DNA from: Haloferax larsenii JCM 13917
GTDB lineage: Archaea; Halobacteriota; Halobacteria; Halobacteriales; Haloferacaceae
Assembly (NCBI RefSeq): GCF_000336955.1
Contig: NZ_AOLI01000019.1
Coordinates: 576,786 to 640,785, forward strand
DNA: 64,000 bases
Direction: 5' to 3'
Shown: one piece after another, positions 29,451-37,752 of the stretch
Numbering within the stretch: position 1 is the stretch's first letter
Layout of the letters: each line of letters starts with the position of its first letter
Position numbers and translations under genes: made by a program
The notes under the pieces: model-generated
Told to the model about the DNA's origin: nothing
Seen by the model: the letters and a program-made list of their open reading frames with translations, nothing else
Database searches by the model: none

Positions 29451-31163
29451 ATGGACGACGAGCTTCGAGAGCGCGTAGAGCGAGAAGCGGAGAAACACGC
29501 CCTCCTCAACGCGGTCAAACACGACAGCGACGCCGACGTGGGTGCCATCATGGGCCCACTGATGGGCGAGAACCCCGACTTCCGTCAGCACGGCGGTGAG
29601 ATTCCGGGCGTCATCGGCCCGGTCGTCTCGGAGGTCAACAGCCTCTCGAACACCGAAAAGCGCGACCGACTGGAAGATCTCGCGCCCGAGGAACTCGCCG
29701 AGATGGAAGCGGAAGACGAAGAAGACGACTCGCTGCTTCCGGATCTGCCGAACGCCGACGAGTACGACGAGGTTCGCATGCGCGCCGCGCCGAACCCCAA
29801 CGGCCCGTGGCACATCGGTCACGCCCGCATGCCGGCCGTCATCGGGACCTACAAGGAGATGTACGACGGCTCCTTCATCGTCCGGTTCGACGACACCGAC
29901 CCGGAGACGAAGCGCCCCGACCTCGACGCCTACGACGCCATCCTCGACGACATCGACTTCCTCGGCTTCGAACCCGACGACGTGATTCGCGCGTCGGACC
30001 GTGTCGAGACCTACTACGACCACGCCCGCGAACTCATCGAGATGGGCGGCGCGTACACGTGTTCGTGCTCGGGTGAGGACTTCTCGAACCTCAAAAACGA
30101 CGGGAAGCCGTGTCCACACCGCGACAAGGACGCCGAGACGACCCGCGACGAGTTCGAGGACATGGTCGCAGGCGAGTACGCGTCTGGCGAGATGGTTCTC
30201 CGCGTCAAGACCGACATCGAGCACAAGAACCCCGCGCTTCGCGACTGGGTCGCCTTCCGCATGATTGACACGCCGCACCCACGCGAGGAAGCCGCAGACT
30301 ACCGCGCGTGGCCGATGCTCGACTTCCAGTCCGGCGTCGACGACCACCTCACGGGCGTCACCCACATCATCCGCGGCATCGACCTGCAGGACTCCGCCAA
30401 GCGCCAGCAGTTCGTCTACGACTACTTCGACTGGGAGTACCCCGAGGTCATCCACTGGGGCCACGTGCAGGTGGACGCCTACGGCGTGAAGATGTCCACC
30501 TCGACGCTCAAGCAACTCATCGGCGACGGCGAACTCGACGGCTGGGACGACCCGCGCGCGCCGACGCTCAAGAGCCTCCGCCGCCGCGGCATCCGCGGAC
30601 AGGCCATCGTCGATGCGATGGTCGCGCTCGGCACGTCCACCTCGAACGTGGACCTCTCGATGAGTTCCATCTACTCGAACAACCGCGACCTCGTGGACGA
30701 CGAGACGGACCGCTACTTCCTCGTCCGGGACGGGGAAGAATTCGCCGTCGAGGGCGGCACGGACACCGCCCACCCGCCACTCCACCCGAGTTTCGAAGAC
30801 CGCGGCACCCGCGACATCCCCGTCGGCGACAGCGTCCTCCTCGAATCGGGCGACGTACCCGCCGAAGGCGACCGCGTCTGGCTCAAGGGCTTCGGTGCCG
30901 TCCGCCGCGAAGACGACACGCTCGTCGCTACTGGCGACGACCTCGACGTGGTCCGCGAGGGCGACGTCGACGTGATTCACTGGGCACCCGCCGACGGTGT
31001 CTCGGTTCGGATGCGCACGATGGATGGTGACGTGACGGGCGTCGCGGAACCCGACTTCGCCGACGTCCCTGTCGACGAACTCGTCCAGTTCGAGCGCGTC
31101 GGCTTCGTCCGCGTGGACGACCGCGGCGACGACGAGACTGTCGTCTACTTCGCGCACAAGTAA
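29451..31163 (+). CDS. gltX: Glutamyl-tRNA synthetase, archaeal (non-discriminating type)
   Basis: A 570-residue class I synthetase that charges tRNA-Glu and, in archaea lacking GlnRS, also tRNA-Gln for later amidation. HIGH motif in GPWHIGHARMPA; KMSKS equivalent in GVKMSTSTLKQ. The archaeal beta-barrel anticodon-binding domain makes up the C-terminal third. Start at 29451 (MDDELRERVEREAEK) fits the helical archaeal N-terminal extension; the upstream ATG at 29370 lies in the promoter. Confidence 0.95.
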   Translation: MDDELRERVEREAEKHALLNAVKHDSDADVGAIMGPLMGENPDFRQHGGEIPGVIGPVVSEVNSLSNTEKRDRLEDLAPEELAEMEAEDEEDDSLLPDLPNADEYDEVRMRAAPNPNGPWHIGHARMPAVIGTYKEMYDGSFIVRFDDTDPETKRPDLDAYDAILDDIDFLGFEPDDVIRASDRVETYYDHARELIEMGGAYTCSCSGEDFSNLKNDGKPCPHRDKDAETTRDEFEDMVAGEYASGEMVLRVKTDIEHKNPALRDWVAFRMIDTPHPREEAADYRAWPMLDFQSGVDDHLTGVTHIIRGIDLQDSAKRQQFVYDYFDWEYPEVIHWGHVQVDAYGVKMSTSTLKQLIGDGELDGWDDPRAPTLKSLRRRGIRGQAIVDAMVALGTSTSNVDLSMSSIYSNNRDLVDDETDRYFLVRDGEEFAVEGGTDTAHPPLHPSFEDRGTRDIPVGDSVLLESGDVPAEGDRVWLKGFGAVRREDDTLVATGDDLDVVREGDVDVIHWAPADGVSVRMRTMDGDVTGVAEPDFADVPVDELVQFERVGFVRVDDRGDDETVVYFAHK

Positions 31164-31305
31164 CGCGGTCTCACTCGGGTCAGGTGCAGAGCCTCGACCG
31201 GGTGTTTCTCACTGTCTTCCCGCAGCAGTTCTTTCGAGCGCCGCAAAACCCCAGAACCAGTTGCCCACTGAGATATATTTTAAGGTTTCATTCAAGCAAC
31301 AAACA

Positions 31306-31313
31306 ATATATAG
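31306..31313 (+). promoter_or_regulatory. TATA box of the DUF4157 cassette locus
   Basis: ATATATAG, about 27 bases before the ATG at 31338, in a strikingly AT-rich stretch (31270-31315) that marks the left edge of the island. Confidence 0.55.
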
Positions 31314-31337
31314 GATGGCTATCAAGTCAGTGGTAAG

Positions 31338-32834
31338 ATGGGATTTCGCTCTGCGAGTGAGAAGACGAGCGAGGGCCAACAGTCCTCGGTCGTCCCGTCG
31401 ATTCAGGAGTTGACAGGTGGGTCCGACCGTAGTCAGCGCGGCGGTGGGTCACCGACGGCACAGGACTCCACAGCTCAGTTCGGCTTGGAGATGTATCGTC
31501 CCGGAATGGAGGTCCAGGTTCAACGCCTCGTCCAGAGCCACGGCGCAAGCCAAGTGCGACAATGGGCCGACGAGGGAATGACTGTGGACACGATGGGCAA
31601 GCCGCGGGACATGCGCCAGTTCCGCGACCGCCAGCAGGAACGCCCTGCTGAGGTTCCGAAGGATATCGAGCGCCGGAACGCGAAGTCGGTTCAGCGCAGT
31701 CGGAATGCGCATCACGAAGCGTCGAAAGCCGGTGACGCGCAGGTTCCCGACTCGGTTCGAGACGTGATTTCCTCGCCCGGCCAGCAACTCGATACGAGCA
31801 TCCAGCGCGCGATGGAAGAGCGCATGGGTGACAATCTGGGTGACGTTCGGATTCACACCGGCCCGAGTGCTGCGAAAGCCTGTGAGGACATCAACGCTCG
31901 TGCCTTTACCGTCGGCAATCACATCGCGTTCAACCACGGCGAGTACGACCCGAGTTCGGCGGAGGGACAGCACGTCCTCGCGCACGAGTTAGCGCACGTT
32001 CGCCAGCAGACCGGTGGTGCGGTGTCGATGCTCCCGCAGAAGGGTGAGTTAGAGATTGACCCCGACGAGCGATTGGAGCGTGAAGCCGAAGAAACCGCCC
32101 AGCGTGTGATGCGTGGCGGTAAAATCGGCGTTCATCGGATGCAGCAGTCTGATGTCCACGTTCAGCGGGCTGCGAAAGGGTATCATGGGACTCGACGCGC
32201 CAGCAAAGACGACTGGCAGACACCAGGGTCAAGCGAGCCAACACACGAGACGCTGTCTGCCGACGAGCTCTCGAAGCGGGTCGCTGAACTTGAACAGCAA
32301 GTCCACGCAAACAAGCAGCGCACCAAACAGAACAACGAAGGGCTATCTAACGTCCAACAGGACCTCAATTCAAAAATCGAGGAGAATACCGCCACGTTGG
32401 ACGCCCACGAAACACAGCTTGACGATGCCACCGACCGCCTGAGCAGTCTCCATGACGAAGTACATTCAGGGCTCGGCGAGAAGGCACAGACGATGGCAGC
32501 AGGGTTGGTTGGCACTGGCGTTGGGTCCACAGGACGGGCCGCAACTCAAGAGACGATGAAACAGGGCATCCAAGAGGGGCACACAGCTGTCGATATGCTG
32601 GGTCCGCTTGGAGATGTGATGATGTCTAGCCCAGAACTAACAGCCGCTGGGCTCAGTGCGCTGGTATTCACTGGTGTCGTGGGGACGGCCACTGAAACGG
32701 GTGTCAAAAGCCTTCTTAGTGGCGGGAAGTCTCTCTTCGACAAGGGAATTAATTCTCTCCTTGGTCGTGATGATGAGACTGATGAACAGCGTGAGGAAGA
32801 AGCAGAAGATGGTGATGGTGGACTCATCTTCTAG
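31338..32834 (+). CDS. DUF4157 (eCIS core domain) protein with variable C-terminus; candidate polymorphic toxin
   Basis: A 498-residue protein. Residues 1-135 are polar and Gln/Arg-rich. Residues about 137-224 form a DUF4157 domain: LDTSIQRAMEERMG, VRIHTGPSAAKACEDI, then AFTVGNHIAFNHGEY and the zincin-like HELAH (216-220). Residues 179-277 are encoded by a repeat found again downstream. From 278 the sequence changes: a heptad-like coiled coil (about 305-380), then Gly/Ala-rich hydrophobic stretches (384-398, 436-452) suggestive of membrane insertion, and an acidic tail. DUF4157 is known from proteins linked to extracellular contractile injection systems. No signal peptide is seen. The toxin role is inferred. 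Confidence 0.8.
   Translation: MGFRSASEKTSEGQQSSVVPSIQELTGGSDRSQRGGGSPTAQDSTAQFGLEMYRPGMEVQVQRLVQSHGASQVRQWADEGMTVDTMGKPRDMRQFRDRQQERPAEVPKDIERRNAKSVQRSRNAHHEASKAGDAQVPDSVRDVISSPGQQLDTSIQRAMEERMGDNLGDVRIHTGPSAAKACEDINARAFTVGNHIAFNHGEYDPSSAEGQHVLAHELAHVRQQTGGAVSMLPQKGELEIDPDERLEREAEETAQRVMRGGKIGVHRMQQSDVHVQRAAKGYHGTRRASKDDWQTPGSSEPTHETLSADELSKRVAELEQQVHANKQRTKQNNEGLSNVQQDLNSKIEENTATLDAHETQLDDATDRLSSLHDEVHSGLGEKAQTMAAGLVGTGVGSTGRAATQETMKQGIQEGHTAVDMLGPLGDVMMSSPELTAAGLSALVFTGVVGTATETGVKSLLSGGKSLFDKGINSLLGRDDETDEQREEEAEDGDGGLIF
31872..32168 (+). repeat. 297-bp cassette-joining repeat, copy 1
   Basis: Encodes residues 179-277 of the intact DUF4157 protein, from AKACED to VHVQR and including HELAH. 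The copy at 33820-34116 has the same length and differs at only about ten positions by eye, nearly all synonymous. Similarity stops sharply at the VQR codons, where the variable C-terminal region begins. Confidence 0.95.
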
Positions 32835-32845
32835 GAGGAAAATTC

Positions 32846-33796
32846 ATGGATGCTAACATAGTCGGAGAAAAGCAAGATCGTATTGGAATTGTGGTGACAG
32901 ATACCCTAGAGAATACTCATAATATCGAGGTTAACACAGAAACTGGAGAGATAGAGTACCACACGGCAGATGCTTACCCAGAACCGAGTAAGAGGACAAA
33001 CAAGGAGGATGATGTCTTTTCCCAGACCCGCCGGTTCGCCCGCTGGCACGTCTACCGCGAGAAGGGTTACGACACGGTACCAGCCTCAGAAAACCCAGAC
33101 CGCATTGCGGGAGTTCTGTTAGCTATCCTCGACCTCGACCAAGCGGAGTTTGAGGAGTATTTCGGGACGCTGTGCCGGCAGGTCGGCAGCCGTGACCTCC
33201 CCGACGTTGAACCGCCGTTAGACCTTCCACAGGAAGTCTACAACGAGCAGTTCATCGTCTACCATCAGCACGTCTATCTGAACCAAGACCTTGAAACGAT
33301 TCAACAAGAGATCCGGCAGGCTGGATCAGAGGTCCTCACTGAGCAGACGATCCAAGAACTGGTCGCAACTGACAGCCAGAATTTCTTCTCGAAGGCGTCT
33401 TCACTGCTTGGTGATCGGTCGCTGACCGACCTCACTATCGAGGGCGTCTCGGGTGTTCACACTCGATACTTCGAAGACACGAACGAAGACCGAATCATCG
33501 AAAGTAGCGACCCGTTCGACCGCGAACCCGACGCCTGCATTGAACTGTTCCCAACCGAGTTGACGCCCGAGTTCTATGGTCTCTACATCGTAAACAACCT
33601 CATCTGCCAGATTCGAGATTGCTACATCGGGATGGGCGTCGAGCCACCGGCACAGTATCGCATTCTCGGACCAGGGAAAGACAAGTACACCGGCAAGTAC
33701 TATCACTTCGACTTCTATCCGGAGTACTTCGACCACGAAGCAGATATCCCCGGCTACACGCCACCGATACCGATGCAACTCGATCAGTATCTGTGA
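32846..33796 (+). CDS. Cassette partner protein 1 (candidate immunity protein)
   Basis: A 316-residue soluble protein, paralogous to those at 34510-35454 and 35913-36950. The N-terminus (MDANIVGEKQDRIGIVV...) starts with a short beta-like domain. The family core later contains EGVSGVHTRYF and LICQIRDCYIGMGVEPP. The 5' end is AT-rich, unlike the neighbouring housekeeping genes. A strong Shine-Dalgarno (GGAGG, 32834-32838) overlaps the stop of the upstream DUF4157 gene. No known domain is recognised; immunity or chaperone roles are inferred from pairing. Confidence 0.75.
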   Translation: MDANIVGEKQDRIGIVVTDTLENTHNIEVNTETGEIEYHTADAYPEPSKRTNKEDDVFSQTRRFARWHVYREKGYDTVPASENPDRIAGVLLAILDLDQAEFEEYFGTLCRQVGSRDLPDVEPPLDLPQEVYNEQFIVYHQHVYLNQDLETIQQEIRQAGSEVLTEQTIQELVATDSQNFFSKASSLLGDRSLTDLTIEGVSGVHTRYFEDTNEDRIIESSDPFDREPDACIELFPTELTPEFYGLYIVNNLICQIRDCYIGMGVEPPAQYRILGPGKDKYTGKYYHFDFYPEYFDHEADIPGYTPPIPMQLDQYL

Positions 33797-34506
33797 GTAT
33801 CCACCCGAGTCCTCAGGCCGCGAAAGCCTGTGAGGACATCAACGCTCGTGCCTTTACCGTCGGCAATCACATCGCGTTCAACCACGGCGAGTACGACCCG
33901 AGTTCGGCAGAGGGACAGCACGTCCTCGCACACGAGCTTGCACACGTTCGCCAGCAGACCGGTGGTGCGGTGTCGATGCTCCCGCAGAAGGGAGAGTTAG
34001 AGATTGACCCCGACGAGCGATTGGAGCGCGAAGCCGAAGAAACCGCCCAGCGTGTGATGCGTGGCGGTAAAATCGGCGTTCATCGGATGCAGCAGTCTGA
34101 TGTGCACGTTCAGCGGTCGAAGAAGTATACTAGACGCGAGTTCTTCACCGGAGAGGCGAGTGCATCAGAAACTGCAGAGGCAGTGGACGATGCAACCGAT
34201 CCGCAGCGGCTGCTTGAAGGGATAGTGTCCCAAGCAAAAGATATCGACTGGGTGAGCGTGTTCAAGAAGGCTGGACTCGCGGCAGCGAAGACGAACCCAG
34301 CGGCGAAGGCTACACTCACTGCGGCCGACGAGCTTGATTCACAACTTCGCGATGACTCTGTTACCGAAGACAGCCTCATCGCGCAGTTAGAACAACGTGA
34401 CCCGCCTCAAAATTGGGTGAAAACTATTGCCCAACAGGCAGCCGATATCGTGCAAAATCGGGCTACGGGTGCAGAACCAATTGCCGGTGAAGGAGGTCAC
34501 GTTTAA
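33793..34506 (+). CDS. Headless DUF4157 cassette with alternative C-terminus (orphan toxin cassette B)
   Basis: A 237-residue frame from a GTG that overlaps the preceding partner gene's stop (GTGA). It lacks the first 169 residues of the full protein and starts in the middle of the DUF4157 domain (VSIHPSPQAAKACED). It then carries the full 99-residue repeat with HELAH, and switches after VHVQR to a different 129-residue end, rich in Ala and charged residues, finishing DPPQNWVKTIAQQ...GEGGHV. It may be translated from the GTG or be silent until recombined onto the full-length head. Confidence 0.65.
   Translation: MSIHPSPQAAKACEDINARAFTVGNHIAFNHGEYDPSSAEGQHVLAHELAHVRQQTGGAVSMLPQKGELEIDPDERLEREAEETAQRVMRGGKIGVHRMQQSDVHVQRSKKYTRREFFTGEASASETAEAVDDATDPQRLLEGIVSQAKDIDWVSVFKKAGLAAAKTNPAAKATLTAADELDSQLRDDSVTEDSLIAQLEQRDPPQNWVKTIAQQAADIVQNRATGAEPIAGEGGHV
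33820..34116 (+). repeat. 297-bp cassette-joining repeat, copy 2
   Basis: Near-identical to 31872-32168, same length and frame. Recombination between the copies would join the full-length head to the cassette B end and delete the intervening A end with partner 1. Confidence 0.95.
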
Positions 34507-34509
34507 AAA

Positions 34510-35454
34510 ATGAAAGCTGTTGTAACCGGAGAAACTGAAGAATTAGTCGGTGTTAATCTGCGCGACAATAATGGTTCAGAGCACGTCGTGGACGTTCGAA
34601 AGGTAGATGGAAAAATCACTGCACACCAACAAGACGGCTACCCAGACGACCCGTCGAAGCGGTCGATGATCGACGAGGTAGAACCGATCAATCAAGCCGT
34701 CCGCTACGCACAGTATCACGTCAACCGTGAGCGGGGCTACGAGACCATTGATTGGCGACAAGACCCAGATCGAACACTTGCCGTAGCACTCGCCATTGCC
34801 GAGTTGGACGTAGATGAGGTTCGCAAGTACTTCGGTACCCTCTACGACCAACTCCGAAGCCACGTTACAGACACTGACCAGCCAGTCTCGCTTCCGAACG
34901 GTGCTGAACTGGGTCACATCGTCTACCAACAGGACGTTTATCTCGGCCTCGGCGACCAAGCGCTCGTCTCGCTAGTCGAACGCGGCTCAGAACTCGGTCC
35001 CGAGGGGCTTCCGGACAATGACGGACCTCTCGAAGATGTCGTTGCGGAGCTTCTTGAGACCGCACAATCGGAGATGGACTCTTCCGACTTGGTAGTCGAA
35101 GCCGTCTCAGGCGTCCACGTGCGGTGGGATGACGCCAGCGGCACCTACCACCACGAGTGTAACGAGAGCCCGAACCTCGACCGAACGCCAGATGCACGCA
35201 TCGACATCCTCCCATTCGGACCAGAGAGCATCCAGGACTTCCAGTTCCAACTCGTTCGCAATCTCGTCTGTCAGGTTCGGGATTGTTACGTCGAGATGGG
35301 CGTGACACCACCGGAAACAGTTCGCATTCAGGGACTCGGGAAACACAAAACAGCGACGTGGTACGAACACTATGACTTCTACCAGCGCTACCACGACCCA
35401 CGAGTCGACATTGACTGGGGTGCACTCGAACCGTCCGAACACCGCGACGAGTGA
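34510..35454 (+). CDS. Cassette partner protein 2 (candidate immunity protein)
   Basis: A 314-residue paralogue of the proteins at 32846 and 35913. It starts MKAVVTGETEELVGVNLRDN, has ITAHQQDGYPDDPSKRS and YHVNRERGYETI near residue 70-80, and the core VSGVHVRWDD and LVCQVRDCYVEMGVTPPE. It lies 3 bases after cassette B, with GGAGG (34492-34496) inside the last codons of B, so translation is coupled. No membrane segment or signal peptide. Confidence 0.75.
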   Translation: MKAVVTGETEELVGVNLRDNNGSEHVVDVRKVDGKITAHQQDGYPDDPSKRSMIDEVEPINQAVRYAQYHVNRERGYETIDWRQDPDRTLAVALAIAELDVDEVRKYFGTLYDQLRSHVTDTDQPVSLPNGAELGHIVYQQDVYLGLGDQALVSLVERGSELGPEGLPDNDGPLEDVVAELLETAQSEMDSSDLVVEAVSGVHVRWDDASGTYHHECNESPNLDRTPDARIDILPFGPESIQDFQFQLVRNLVCQVRDCYVEMGVTPPETVRIQGLGKHKTATWYEHYDFYQRYHDPRVDIDWGALEPSEHRDE

Positions 35455-35496
35455 GGGATAGTACGGAATGGCGACGAATTAGCGCCCGTTCAACGG

Positions 35497-35910
35497 ATGA
35501 CTGGCGCAGAAACCGTTCTTGGCGGTGCAACTGCACTGGTGGCCAGTCAGATGATGATTCCGAAGATGCTGGAGGAAGGCGAGCAGTTGCAGGAGATCAA
35601 GGAAAACTGGGATGATATCGACGGCCACGAAGTTGCCTATGAAGGATTCAAAGCTCAAATGGCGGCTTACGCAAACATCATCCCGGGCGTCAAAGGCGTG
35701 CGCGCCGCGAAAAACAACGCGCAACAGCAGTTAAAAGATATCAGCTTCCAAGACCGGCTCGCCGAGGCCAGCTTCCCGGAATCGTGGATGAAGCAACTCG
35801 GTGAGATGGACCCACCAGAAACATGGCTCGACGAAGCCAGACGAGTTGCCCAAGAGGTGTCTGATGGGACTGGGTCGGAAACTGTGCTCGGTGAAGGAGG
35901 AAATGTCTAG
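35497..35910 (+). CDS. Cassette C: C-terminal toxin-like fragment without the DUF4157 head
   Basis: A 137-residue frame. The bases before its ATG read in-frame as Pro-Val-Gln-Arg, the exact residues at which the shared repeat ends in the other units, so the head has been lost up to the junction. The protein starts with a hydrophobic helix (VLGGATALVASQMMIP). Its end (LGEMDPPETWLDEARRVAQ...GEGGNV) is clearly related to cassette B's end. It may be translated on its own or be a remnant. Confidence 0.6.
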   Translation: MTGAETVLGGATALVASQMMIPKMLEEGEQLQEIKENWDDIDGHEVAYEGFKAQMAAYANIIPGVKGVRAAKNNAQQQLKDISFQDRLAEASFPESWMKQLGEMDPPETWLDEARRVAQEVSDGTGSETVLGEGGNV

Positions 35911-35912
35911 AA

Positions 35913-36950
35913 ATGAAAGCCGTAATTACTGGAGAGAATGACAAATTGGTTGGCGTCAACCTGCGAGATAATGCTGGTGCTGAACACATCCTTGACGTAA
36001 GAAAGAGGGATGGGCAAATAACAGGACATCAGCAAGACGGCTACCCGGACGACCCGAGTGAGCGGACAAGAGCCGAAAACATCCACGTCAATCAGGCTCG
36101 CCGCTTTGCGAAGTACTGGGTGTATCGCAAGCGGGGATACGACACGGTTCCCCCCACGGAGAACCCAGATCGGATCATAGCAGCCGCAATTGCTCTGACA
36201 CCACTGGAACCCGAAACAGCAGAAACCCATTTAGGCGACTTTTATCAGCACTTCCAGAGTATCAATGGAACTGCTGACTCGCCCGTCGAGATGCCCGAGG
36301 GCGTCCCCGAACAGGGTGGTGGAACAGTCTACCAGAAAGACATCTACGTTGGGCTCGAAGATGAGACTCTGGGGACAATCGCGGCCGATATCCTTGCTGA
36401 CCCCAAACTGATGGAACTGGTCAGCAAGTCCGTCGGTGTTGGCGGAGAAACTCCGGTCGGAGCAGAGTTCGTTCCGACCTTCAAAGAGCTAATCGCAGAG
36501 GCATCCGACCGAGACCCTGACTCACTCCCAAGCCTCAGCGAGGGTCTCCTACTGGAAGCTACCTCGGGCATTCACGTACACTGGGATGACCCGCCGGGAG
36601 AGTACCATACCCAATGGGGAGACCAACCCGACCTTAATCGTGACCCGGCCGCCCGCATCGAAATCTTCCCCTTCGAGCCGGAGTCGATTACCGAACTGCA
36701 GGCCCAAGTCGCCAGACACCTGCTGTGCCAGATTCGGGATTGCTATCTCACGATGGGAATCGCGCCACCTGAGCAGTTCCGTATTCTCGGCCACGGTCGC
36801 CACGAGGCTACGGGGCTATACGCCAGCTACGACATCTACGATGAATACTTCGACCCCAACGCCGAGATTGACACGTGGTACGTAGAGAACACACCCGAAG
36901 GTGCCTACGAACACGAGCCCGCTAACAAAACCGTACAAACCAAGGCCTGA
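35913..36950 (+). CDS. Cassette partner protein 3 (candidate immunity protein)
   Basis: A 345-residue paralogue, closest at its N-terminus to partner 2 (MKAVITGENDKLVGVNLRDN; GHQQDGYPDDPSERT). Core motifs TSGIHVHWDD and LLCQIRDCYLTMGIAPPE. An extra middle segment of about 30 residues accounts for the greater length. GGAGG (35896-35900) in the end of cassette C serves it. Last complete gene of the island. Confidence 0.75.
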   Translation: MKAVITGENDKLVGVNLRDNAGAEHILDVRKRDGQITGHQQDGYPDDPSERTRAENIHVNQARRFAKYWVYRKRGYDTVPPTENPDRIIAAAIALTPLEPETAETHLGDFYQHFQSINGTADSPVEMPEGVPEQGGGTVYQKDIYVGLEDETLGTIAADILADPKLMELVSKSVGVGGETPVGAEFVPTFKELIAEASDRDPDSLPSLSEGLLLEATSGIHVHWDDPPGEYHTQWGDQPDLNRDPAARIEIFPFEPESITELQAQVARHLLCQIRDCYLTMGIAPPEQFRILGHGRHEATGLYASYDIYDEYFDPNAEIDTWYVENTPEGAYEHEPANKTVQTKA

Positions 36951-37000
36951 CCCTCGGCGAATTTATCCTCCGGTATCTCGGGGACCGATTGGCTAGTTCG

Positions 37001-37063
37001 ACTGCTGAAAGCTTGTGAAGACATCAACGCCCGAGCATTCACCGTGGGCAATCAAATCGCGTC
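37001..37063 (+). pseudogene. Stub of a fourth DUF4157 repeat
   Basis: Reads in frame as LLKACEDINARAFTVGNQIA, the first 20 or so residues of the cassette repeat, then stops matching. Silent sites differ from the other two copies, so it is an older or foreign copy. It marks the right edge of the island. Confidence 0.8.
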
Positions 37064-37125
37064 CACCTATGCAAACACAGATAGCGAACACTCGTTTTAC
37101 CGACGACGCCATCGTACCACCACTC

Positions 37126-37752
37126 GTGACACTCGTCGACCTCACTCGCCTCGTCGAATCGGGGATGCCGACCTATCCCGGCGACCCGCCAGTCGCCGTC
37201 GAATCGCACGCCGACTTCGACACCGACGGCTATCGTGTATCGCATCTCGAACTCGGAACACACGCCGGGACGCACGTCGATGCACCATCTCACACCGAAC
37301 CGGACGGGCGAACACTCGACACCTACGCGGTCGAAGACCTGCGCTTTACCGCGCGAGTAGTCGACTGCCGTGGCGTCGGCGTGGGAGAACTCGTCGGACG
37401 CGACGCGGTTCCCGATGGGGCGGTCGACGACGTGGACTTCCTCGTCTTCCGAACTGGCTGGGAACGCGAGTGGGGAACCGAGCGAATGACCGACCATCCG
37501 GCACTGGCACCCGAGACCGGGCAGTGGTGCGCGGACCACGGAGTTTCGGTCGGTATCGACGCGCTCAGTCCCGACCCGACCGGTGGCGACGGCGTTCCAG
37601 TTCATCACGCGGTCTTGGGGGCAGAACTGCTCATCGTCGAGAATCTATGTGGGTTGGAGGCGCTTCCAGTGGACCGCGAGTTCGACCTCTTCGTGATGCC
37701 GCTTCGGGTCGACGCCGACGGAGCGCCTGCGCGAGTCGTCGCGGAAGTGTGA
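37126..37752 (+). CDS. Cyclase / kynurenine-formamidase family hydrolase
   Basis: A metal-dependent hydrolase, 208 residues from the GTG at 37126. The metal motif HAGTHVDAPSH is diagnostic, with FLVFRTGWER and IDALSPDP downstream. The family start VDLTR...ESGMPTYPGDPP comes right after the GTG, and a TATA-like TTTTAC lies about 27 bases before it. A longer reading from the ATG at 37069 would put part of the island edge in the protein. The substrate is not known; N-formylkynurenine is one possibility. Confidence 0.85.
   Translation: MTLVDLTRLVESGMPTYPGDPPVAVESHADFDTDGYRVSHLELGTHAGTHVDAPSHTEPDGRTLDTYAVEDLRFTARVVDCRGVGVGELVGRDAVPDGAVDDVDFLVFRTGWEREWGTERMTDHPALAPETGQWCADHGVSVGIDALSPDPTGGDGVPVHHAVLGAELLIVENLCGLEALPVDREFDLFVMPLRVDADGAPARVVAEV

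Follow-up and report, generated by a model that had tools for sequence, protein, structure and literature searches.

We analyzed a 64,000-nucleotide window of Haloferax larsenii JCM 13917 (contig NZ_AOLI01000019.1, positions 576,786 to 640,785; the coordinates below count from its first nucleotide, and the genes named in it lie on the forward strand) and found, between gltX and a cyclase-like gene, a 5.9-kb island composed of three toxin-partner units (A, B, and C) and a terminal stub of the DUF4157 toxin head. The island is probably an orphan array of effector-immunity cassettes with two-part partner proteins, which would serve the genome's own contractile injection system (CIS) of the archaeal type VI secretion system (T6SS) or extracellular CIS (eCIS) type. 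Chances seem evenly balanced for a further proposal, in which toxin and partner form a mosaic of three parts governed by two recognition codes that are independent of each other, one joining toxin body to partner body and the other joining the toxin tail to the N-terminal domain (N-domain) of the partner, the tail pair acting as a plug and socket between unrelated toxins.

Unit A (31338 to 32834; 498 amino acids [aa]) has a full head. Its eCIS_core (PF13699) match covers residues 150 to 227 with 109.8 bits over profile positions 1 to 78 (cutoff, 22), and its translation contains HELAH, an HExxH motif, in the DUF4157 domain. Head repeat copy 1 (31869 to 32168) terminates in DVHVQR at head-model position 226 to 229 and is followed by end A (32169 to 32834), which combines a coiled coil with a hydrophobic segment (maximum 19-residue hydropathy, 1.54), and by partner A (32846 to 33796; 316 aa; A1 family), the presumed immunity protein. 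Unit B (33793 to 34506) starts with GTG inside the domain and retains approximately the last 100 head residues; its eCIS_core match is partial (79.4 bits, positions 20 to 78). This second repeat copy (33817 to 34116) is 97% identical to that of unit A over 300 nt, which excludes a chance likeness, and among ten Haloferax heads compared, the head of unit A is its nearest relative. End B closes with the tail TGAEPIAGEGGHV (34465 to 34503; GxGGxV type) and precedes partner B (34510 to 35454; 314 aa), whose residues 1 to 41 (34510 to 34632), predicted to form four beta strands, are the proposed tail reader. The start of unit B overlaps the stop codon of partner A (33793 to 33796), an arrangement that would permit coupled translation of the truncated effector.

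Unit C (35497 to 35910) consists of an end only, with the tail TGSETVLGEGGNV; its ATG directly follows PVQR, and the profile search gave no eCIS_core match for it. End C has relatives in end B and among the ends of three other loci (L033, L071, and L024), and partner C (35913 to 36950; 345 aa; A1 family) completes the third of three units with a downstream partner gene. The right end of the island is the head stub, a third partial repeat copy (37007 to 37065; 85% of 59 nt). No Rhs or filamentous hemagglutinin trunk was matched in Pfam or NCBIfam among six window proteins. A first-pass annotation had described repeated units of head repeat, variable end, and partner, with a full head in unit A, a start in mid-domain in unit B, and a stub of a further repeat, all of which the coordinates, the 300-nt repeat, and the DUF4157 matches bear out. 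The PVQR remnant that it read in unit C is also present; four residues are weak taken alone, but the remnant is credible because other arrays share the pattern. The annotation overlooked the single partner family and the tail/N-domain mosaic described below.

The site of the island is empty in all 14 other genomes of the genus, where the cyclase gene comes directly after gltX (29451 to 31163; named from the first-pass annotation and the sequence), and we therefore conclude that the island was inserted in this lineage. The empty sites place the limits of the insertion at 31164 to 37083, with breakpoints near these positions and the right edge approximate; inspection by eye revealed no target duplication at the edges. 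The cyclase-like gene (37126 to 37752) was given a start at 37069 by the gene caller, upstream of the GTG at 37126 that aligns with the start in relatives.

The injection system is encoded elsewhere. The genome (3.70 Mb in 36 contigs) has seven eCIS_core matches, two in the window, four on contig C17, and one on contig C7, and its one sheath match is on C17. The genes around the sheath appear to encode an AAA ATPase, tubes, a baseplate, and a spike, a reading aided by how the corresponding plasmid, pHl5678-1, is annotated, and a baseplate J match supports the CIS cluster of this genome. One head-partner unit lies inside the cluster and a four-unit array beside it. The first-pass annotation had claimed that the 64 kb contain no injection system; this holds for the window, where gene calls (first 90 residues of each inspected) include no injection-system genes, but the implication that none is at hand is not supported. 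The CIS cluster also rules out a purely local reading without an injector.

Several other genes of this genome touch on the same families. Inside the CIS cluster is a solo partner gene on the opposite strand, with a 40-residue N-terminal extension (L010:8667-9791), and solo copies occupy the matching place in H. larsenii (NCIM 5678 plasmid) and H. elongans. A pentapeptide-repeat protein whose C-terminal end looks by eye like a potassium channel (L009:10115-12421) adjoins the CIS array and is likewise found at the matching place on the H. larsenii plasmid. Two DUF4157 heads (L012:9439-10596 and L013:9446-10993) carry ends of other kinds, one of which resembles EndoU nuclease below the cutoff; the 20 kb fetched around each of these heads contained no partner-family match.

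Heads, partners, and injectors occur together across the family. The search of haloarchaeal genomes for DUF4157 (PF13699) that had been proposed with the first-pass annotation found it in 22 of 119 family genomes. The sheath is present in 18 of these 119. Members of the partner family occur in 10, with strong matches (E<1e-60) in 8 and weak ones in 2; among the eight genomes with strong partners, seven have a sheath and all eight have DUF4157 (Fisher test, 4.2e-6 and 4.1e-7, respectively). The available text on the T6SS of H. borinquense (PMC11566945) describes five DUF4157 proteins that are more abundant in the wild-type secretome than in that of a sheath mutant, four toxin-immunity pairs verified in H. 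volcanii, prevention of toxicity by downstream partners in H. borinquense pairs, and two of six pairs located outside the CIS cluster. The same source reports a membrane-attached T6SS in H. elongans that lyses H. volcanii on contact.

To follow cassettes across genomes, we used 72 loci from the best 80 of 92 relatives; since a single degenerate peptide pattern chose them, members lacking that motif were missed. A head precedes the partner on the upstream frame in 131 of 173 partner matches. We set the cut so that a head counts as truncated if it begins no earlier than position 100 of the head model. The junction between head and end is constant, falling at model position 226 to 229 in all 39 truncated heads and in 88 of the 92 full ones. 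Of the truncated heads, 30 of 39 come after another partner gene (7 do not, and 2 are at edges); among full heads, the corresponding count is 20 of 92 (66 lack such a gene before them, and 6 are at edges). In Natrinema hispanicum, an end similar to that of unit B (66% over 111 aa) stands on a head that this measure does not class as truncated.

Cassettes also differ between close strains. We compared two places, both at the CIS cluster on C17. Plasmid pHl5678-1 of H. larsenii NCIM 5678 carries a matching CIS cluster with different cassettes. Beside the AAA gene, truncated head 2, end 2, and partner 2 of the C17 array correspond to a full-head unit of the plasmid at 96% over 1.9 kb, and thus the module that is second in the window's strain stands first on pHl5678-1; neither end 1 with partner 1 nor end 3 with partner 3 has a match in the plasmid stretch compared. 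At the second site, the head (97.5%) and the 3' flank (98%) match the plasmid, and the units between them differ, one versus two. These differences between matching flanks and the constant junction uphold the first-pass description of swappable cassettes resembling Rhs/CdiA orphans. The comparison of sister strains proposed with it is answered in part: cassette sets differ at the CIS cluster, whereas the window island, with 14 of 14 sites empty, has no strain counterpart.

For the ends and tails, 126 of the 173 partner matches were retained; those dropped had no head on the upstream frame (38), no upstream frame at all (4), an identical end (3), or a short head match (2). In 96 of 126 ends, a 19-residue stretch reaches a mean hydropathy of at least 1.2; the counts for partners and heads are 9 of 114 and 1 of 126, respectively. 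In addition, GxxxGxxxG-type small-residue repeats number 5.0 per 100 aa in ends versus 0.8 in partners and 1.5 in heads. This composition suggests that the ends are membrane-active toxins, in keeping with the published lysis of H. volcanii. Ends A, B, and C match no known toxin family above the cutoff in Pfam or NCBIfam; a hit of end A to the pore-forming subunit MakB (20.7 bits; cutoff, 240) falls in the coiled coil and was given no weight. Where ends are at least 40% identical, their partners are 65% identical, compared to 36.5% for unmatched ends (0 of 1,000 permutations). We used these pairwise matches and set aside single-linkage end clusters because they chain through coiled coils.

The three window partners are mutually homologous (identity to partner B is 35% for partner A and 45% for partner C), 62 aligned partners form one family, and the genome holds nine homologous members. 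The three window partners match nothing in Pfam or NCBIfam at E<=1. The AlphaFold2 model of partner B (62 sequences; mean predicted local distance difference test [pLDDT] score, 90.3; predicted template modeling score, 0.89) has strands at residues 2 to 8, 12 to 18, 24 to 30, and 36 to 41, no helix of at least 4 residues ahead of position 53, and a mixed, largely helical body from there on. Foldseek found no known fold at E<=0.001 (best, 0.31), and the best VIA comparison (Z, 5.5 over residues 1 to 79) is in the range of common arrangements. A shorter class of partner lacks the middle (model positions ~150 to 205; L096:37214-37993 and G112:C2:107065-107853).

Different parts of the partner follow different parts of the toxin. 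Partner windows from residue 47 to 300 follow the toxin end (difference in identity between matched and unmatched ends, 0.18 to 0.43), whereas residues 1 to 36 barely do so (0.47 to 0.50 matched versus 0.45 to 0.48 unmatched). Instead, residues 1 to ~40 covary with the last ~10 residues of the toxin. Among units with unmatched ends, identity over residues 1 to 20 is 0.73 for pairs with the same tail type and 0.46 for pairs with different types, and from residue 47 on, this difference is at most 0.03. The signal in the first third of the partner holds between genera when labels are shuffled within genera (0 of 1,000); the middle and last thirds have no tail signal (436 and 570 of 1,000 shuffles, respectively). 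Over the 30 residues that precede the tail, same-tail pairs are scarcely more alike than other pairs (0.204 versus 0.179). The exchanged block corresponds to one predicted beta unit, since the model strands end at residue 41 and the body begins at 53.

These comparisons use nine tail types recognized so far, among them GxGGxV, GDAxSRR, xKVxF, and TRFD, whose patterns were written after inspection of the data. Among the 126 units, 121 are near full length, 56 of them with a typed tail and 65 "other"; 55 and then 54 entered the tail-type prediction. When each unit is assigned the tail type of its nearest neighbor in a different genus, units with matched ends being excluded, nearness in the N-domain gives the correct type in 50 of 54 cases and nearness in the partner body in 6 of 54 (chance, 6.4 for both). 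We found partner starts for 35 head-less units, of which 29 have no typed tail; in the other 6, unit C included, the N-domain predicts the tail type every time (chance, 0.8). These six were outside the earlier sets, although some, again including unit C, had been seen before the patterns were written. Up to residue 45, 21 of 44 columns are associated with tail type at z>6; beyond it, 0 of 251 are. Residue 26 varies with tail type (W, T, V, E, G, K, L, Q, or D/N), and only four units depart from this rule. Among in-strand positions, the five strongest (26, 28, 16, 12, and 6) are all even-numbered, as expected if they line one face of the predicted sheet; the odd positions 15 and 37 come next.

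Two tests that do not use the tail patterns point the same way. Where the ends of a pair are unmatched, the number of tail residues that agree at the best offset climbs from 1.9 of 9 at an N-domain identity of 0.3 to 0.4 to 7.0 of 9 at 0.8 to 0.9 (30 pairs) and is 6.7 above 0.9 (three pairs), and partner-body identity stays flat at 0.34 to 0.35 across these bins. The ratio of nonsynonymous to synonymous differences (pN/pS) in the tails is 0.27 to 0.28 in 79 pairs with like N-domains and unmatched ends, 0.57 to 0.61 in intermediate pairs, and 0.79 to 0.91 in 3,285 control pairs aligned alike, with pS equally high (0.63 to 0.77) in like and control pairs. We discarded a first estimate of 0.18 as biased because the tail types had been picked by amino acid pattern, and we prefer the offset-aligned version with controls to a stop-anchored one (0.67 versus 0.94). 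Shine-Dalgarno-like letters occur near 83 of 131 partner starts; we rejected the idea that tail variation is a ribosome-binding site read in different frames because the tails differ as peptides and have a low pN/pS relative to controls. The covariation is consistent with a docking code between tail and predicted N-domain.

Together, these observations suggest how the island might work. Unit A would be a live effector whose DUF4157 head marks the protein for the injector, with end A acting as a membrane-active toxin and partner A as its immunity protein. Units B and C would be displaced or captured end-partner modules; the head remnant would let recombination return an end onto a full head, and partners B and C might meanwhile protect against kin. 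The N-terminal beta domain of the partner (residues 1 to 41) would dock the C-terminal tail of the toxin, the partner body would recognize the end, and the CIS would deliver the toxins in trans.

Other explanations account for parts of these data. The partner could be a loading chaperone or adaptor that takes the effector to the spike, instead of or in addition to conferring immunity, with the tail and N-domain as a loading handle. One conserved family serves many ends, as adaptors tend to do, and the solo copies inside the CIS clusters of the window's genome, the H. larsenii plasmid, and H. elongans fit such a role. We nevertheless think it unlikely, given that residues 47 to 300 covary with the end, as those of a cognate immunity protein would, and that the downstream partners of H. 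borinquense prevented toxicity (PMC11566945), a parallel drawn by analogy. Linkage is a slightly better contender, although still short of probable: tail and N-domain lie within ~170 nt of each other and may covary simply as neighboring DNA that moves together, the tail peptide binding nothing. When the last 40 residues of unit B were fused in frame to partner B, the predicted tail remained unplaced, with a pLDDT below 50. Such linkage may account for some of the covariation but not for the conservation of the tails at the peptide level, where pN/pS is low and pS as high as in controls; the covarying block, moreover, ends near the boundary of a predicted domain. The least probable alternative by some distance is decay, in which units B and C would be functionless leftovers of duplication. 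Much of the head of B and all of that of C are gone, and a stub follows, but the partner frames of both are open at 314 and 345 aa, the 39 truncated-head units with end and partner recur across loci, and the Natrinema end shows a B-like module on a nontruncated head.

The modules might instead be general toxin modules, with the CIS just one among several systems that deliver them, a reading about as probable as linkage. In genomes G049 (L119:7248-9913) and G032 (L094:1141-3287), partner-like genes lie directly behind a large, strongly hydrophobic, multispan-looking gene with a glycine-rich C-terminal end, and neither genome has a DUF4157 or sheath match; the end-partner module may sit there on a second delivery head, perhaps of the conjugation type. 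Genome G035, at 97% completeness, yields 16 matches to DUF4157 and 19 to the partner family, some of the latter being split pieces, and none to a sheath or baseplate; it may hold effectors without an injector, or the injector may be absent from the assembly. Set against this is the sheath in seven of the eight strong-partner genomes of the family sample. These three genomes weigh against an orphan array that serves a CIS, as the undocked tail of the fused model and the 65 of 121 near-full-length units with untyped tails weigh against a docking code. Two results on the heads also weigh against the array reading. The plasmid head agrees with truncated head 2 over only approximately its last 40 nt and, upstream of these, follows the full head of the window's strain more often; an exact crossover from truncated head 2 is not supported beyond that stretch. 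Heads are as similar between genomes (0.827 to 0.858) as within them (0.831 to 0.851), so that general concerted evolution or homogenization of heads is not supported. On balance, an orphan array of cassettes for the CIS of this genome remains the reading that we prefer.

Orphan modules of CdiA have a comparable layout of a full gene followed by fragments. In Rhs loci, as far as the available text of Koskiniemi et al. (2014; PMC3967940) describes them, a full gene is likewise followed by fragments with a conserved part, a toxin, and an immunity gene, joined at a fixed junction, and there is evidence that recombination in the shared region fuses an orphan toxin to the main gene. The arrays described here differ from Rhs in their DUF4157 head, their archaeal host, partners that are homologous to each other, and a second exchange block that spans the gene boundary. 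CDI (contact-dependent growth inhibition) and Rhs loci typically encode unrelated immunity proteins for different toxins; in contrast, the window partners and the 62 aligned partners belong to one family.

Haloarchaeal DUF4157 toxin-immunity pairs outside the CIS cluster have already been published (PMC11566945), and the H. borinquense pairs in the available parts of that account (Zachs 2024) resemble ours in their head, downstream partner, CIS in the genome, and placement away from the cluster. Unlike in those parts of the account, we find arrays with truncated and head-less units, one partner family, and a proposed tail code. The head family is shared with the PVC-metallopeptidase polymorphic toxins, for which the available text of Zhang et al. 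(2012; PMC3482391) notes variable C-terminal modules in H. borinquense; where that text finds most immunity superfamilies absent from archaea, we describe an archaeal partner family. The tail/N-domain pair would work much like the short linear motif (SLiM)/beta-hairpin docking of nonribosomal peptide synthetases and polyketide synthases, in which, according to the available text (PMC9113145), a C-terminal tail of <15 residues meets the N-terminal beta-containing domain of the next protein in exchangeable pairs. The biology is different, and the predicted fold, with four strands in place of alpha-beta-beta-alpha-alpha, places the pair outside that family. Within titles and abstract openings of the open-access literature, we found no report of such a tail code or of haloarchaeal DUF4157 cassette arrays.

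Our findings point to archaeal injector effectors whose heads bear orphan cassette arrays in the style of Rhs, accompanied by an archaeal partner family that has gone without a Pfam or NCBIfam match in its three window members. Haloferax volcanii and H. elongans have both served in laboratory killing assays of this kind (PMC11566945, available text). A docking code, if true, would explain how the right protein finds the right toxin among nine homologous partners, or among up to 19 matches as in G035, and would offer peptide-domain pairs that work in high salt. Plug-and-socket tails, if true, would give haloarchaea specific pairing among the many paralogous toxin-partner pairs of a single cell.

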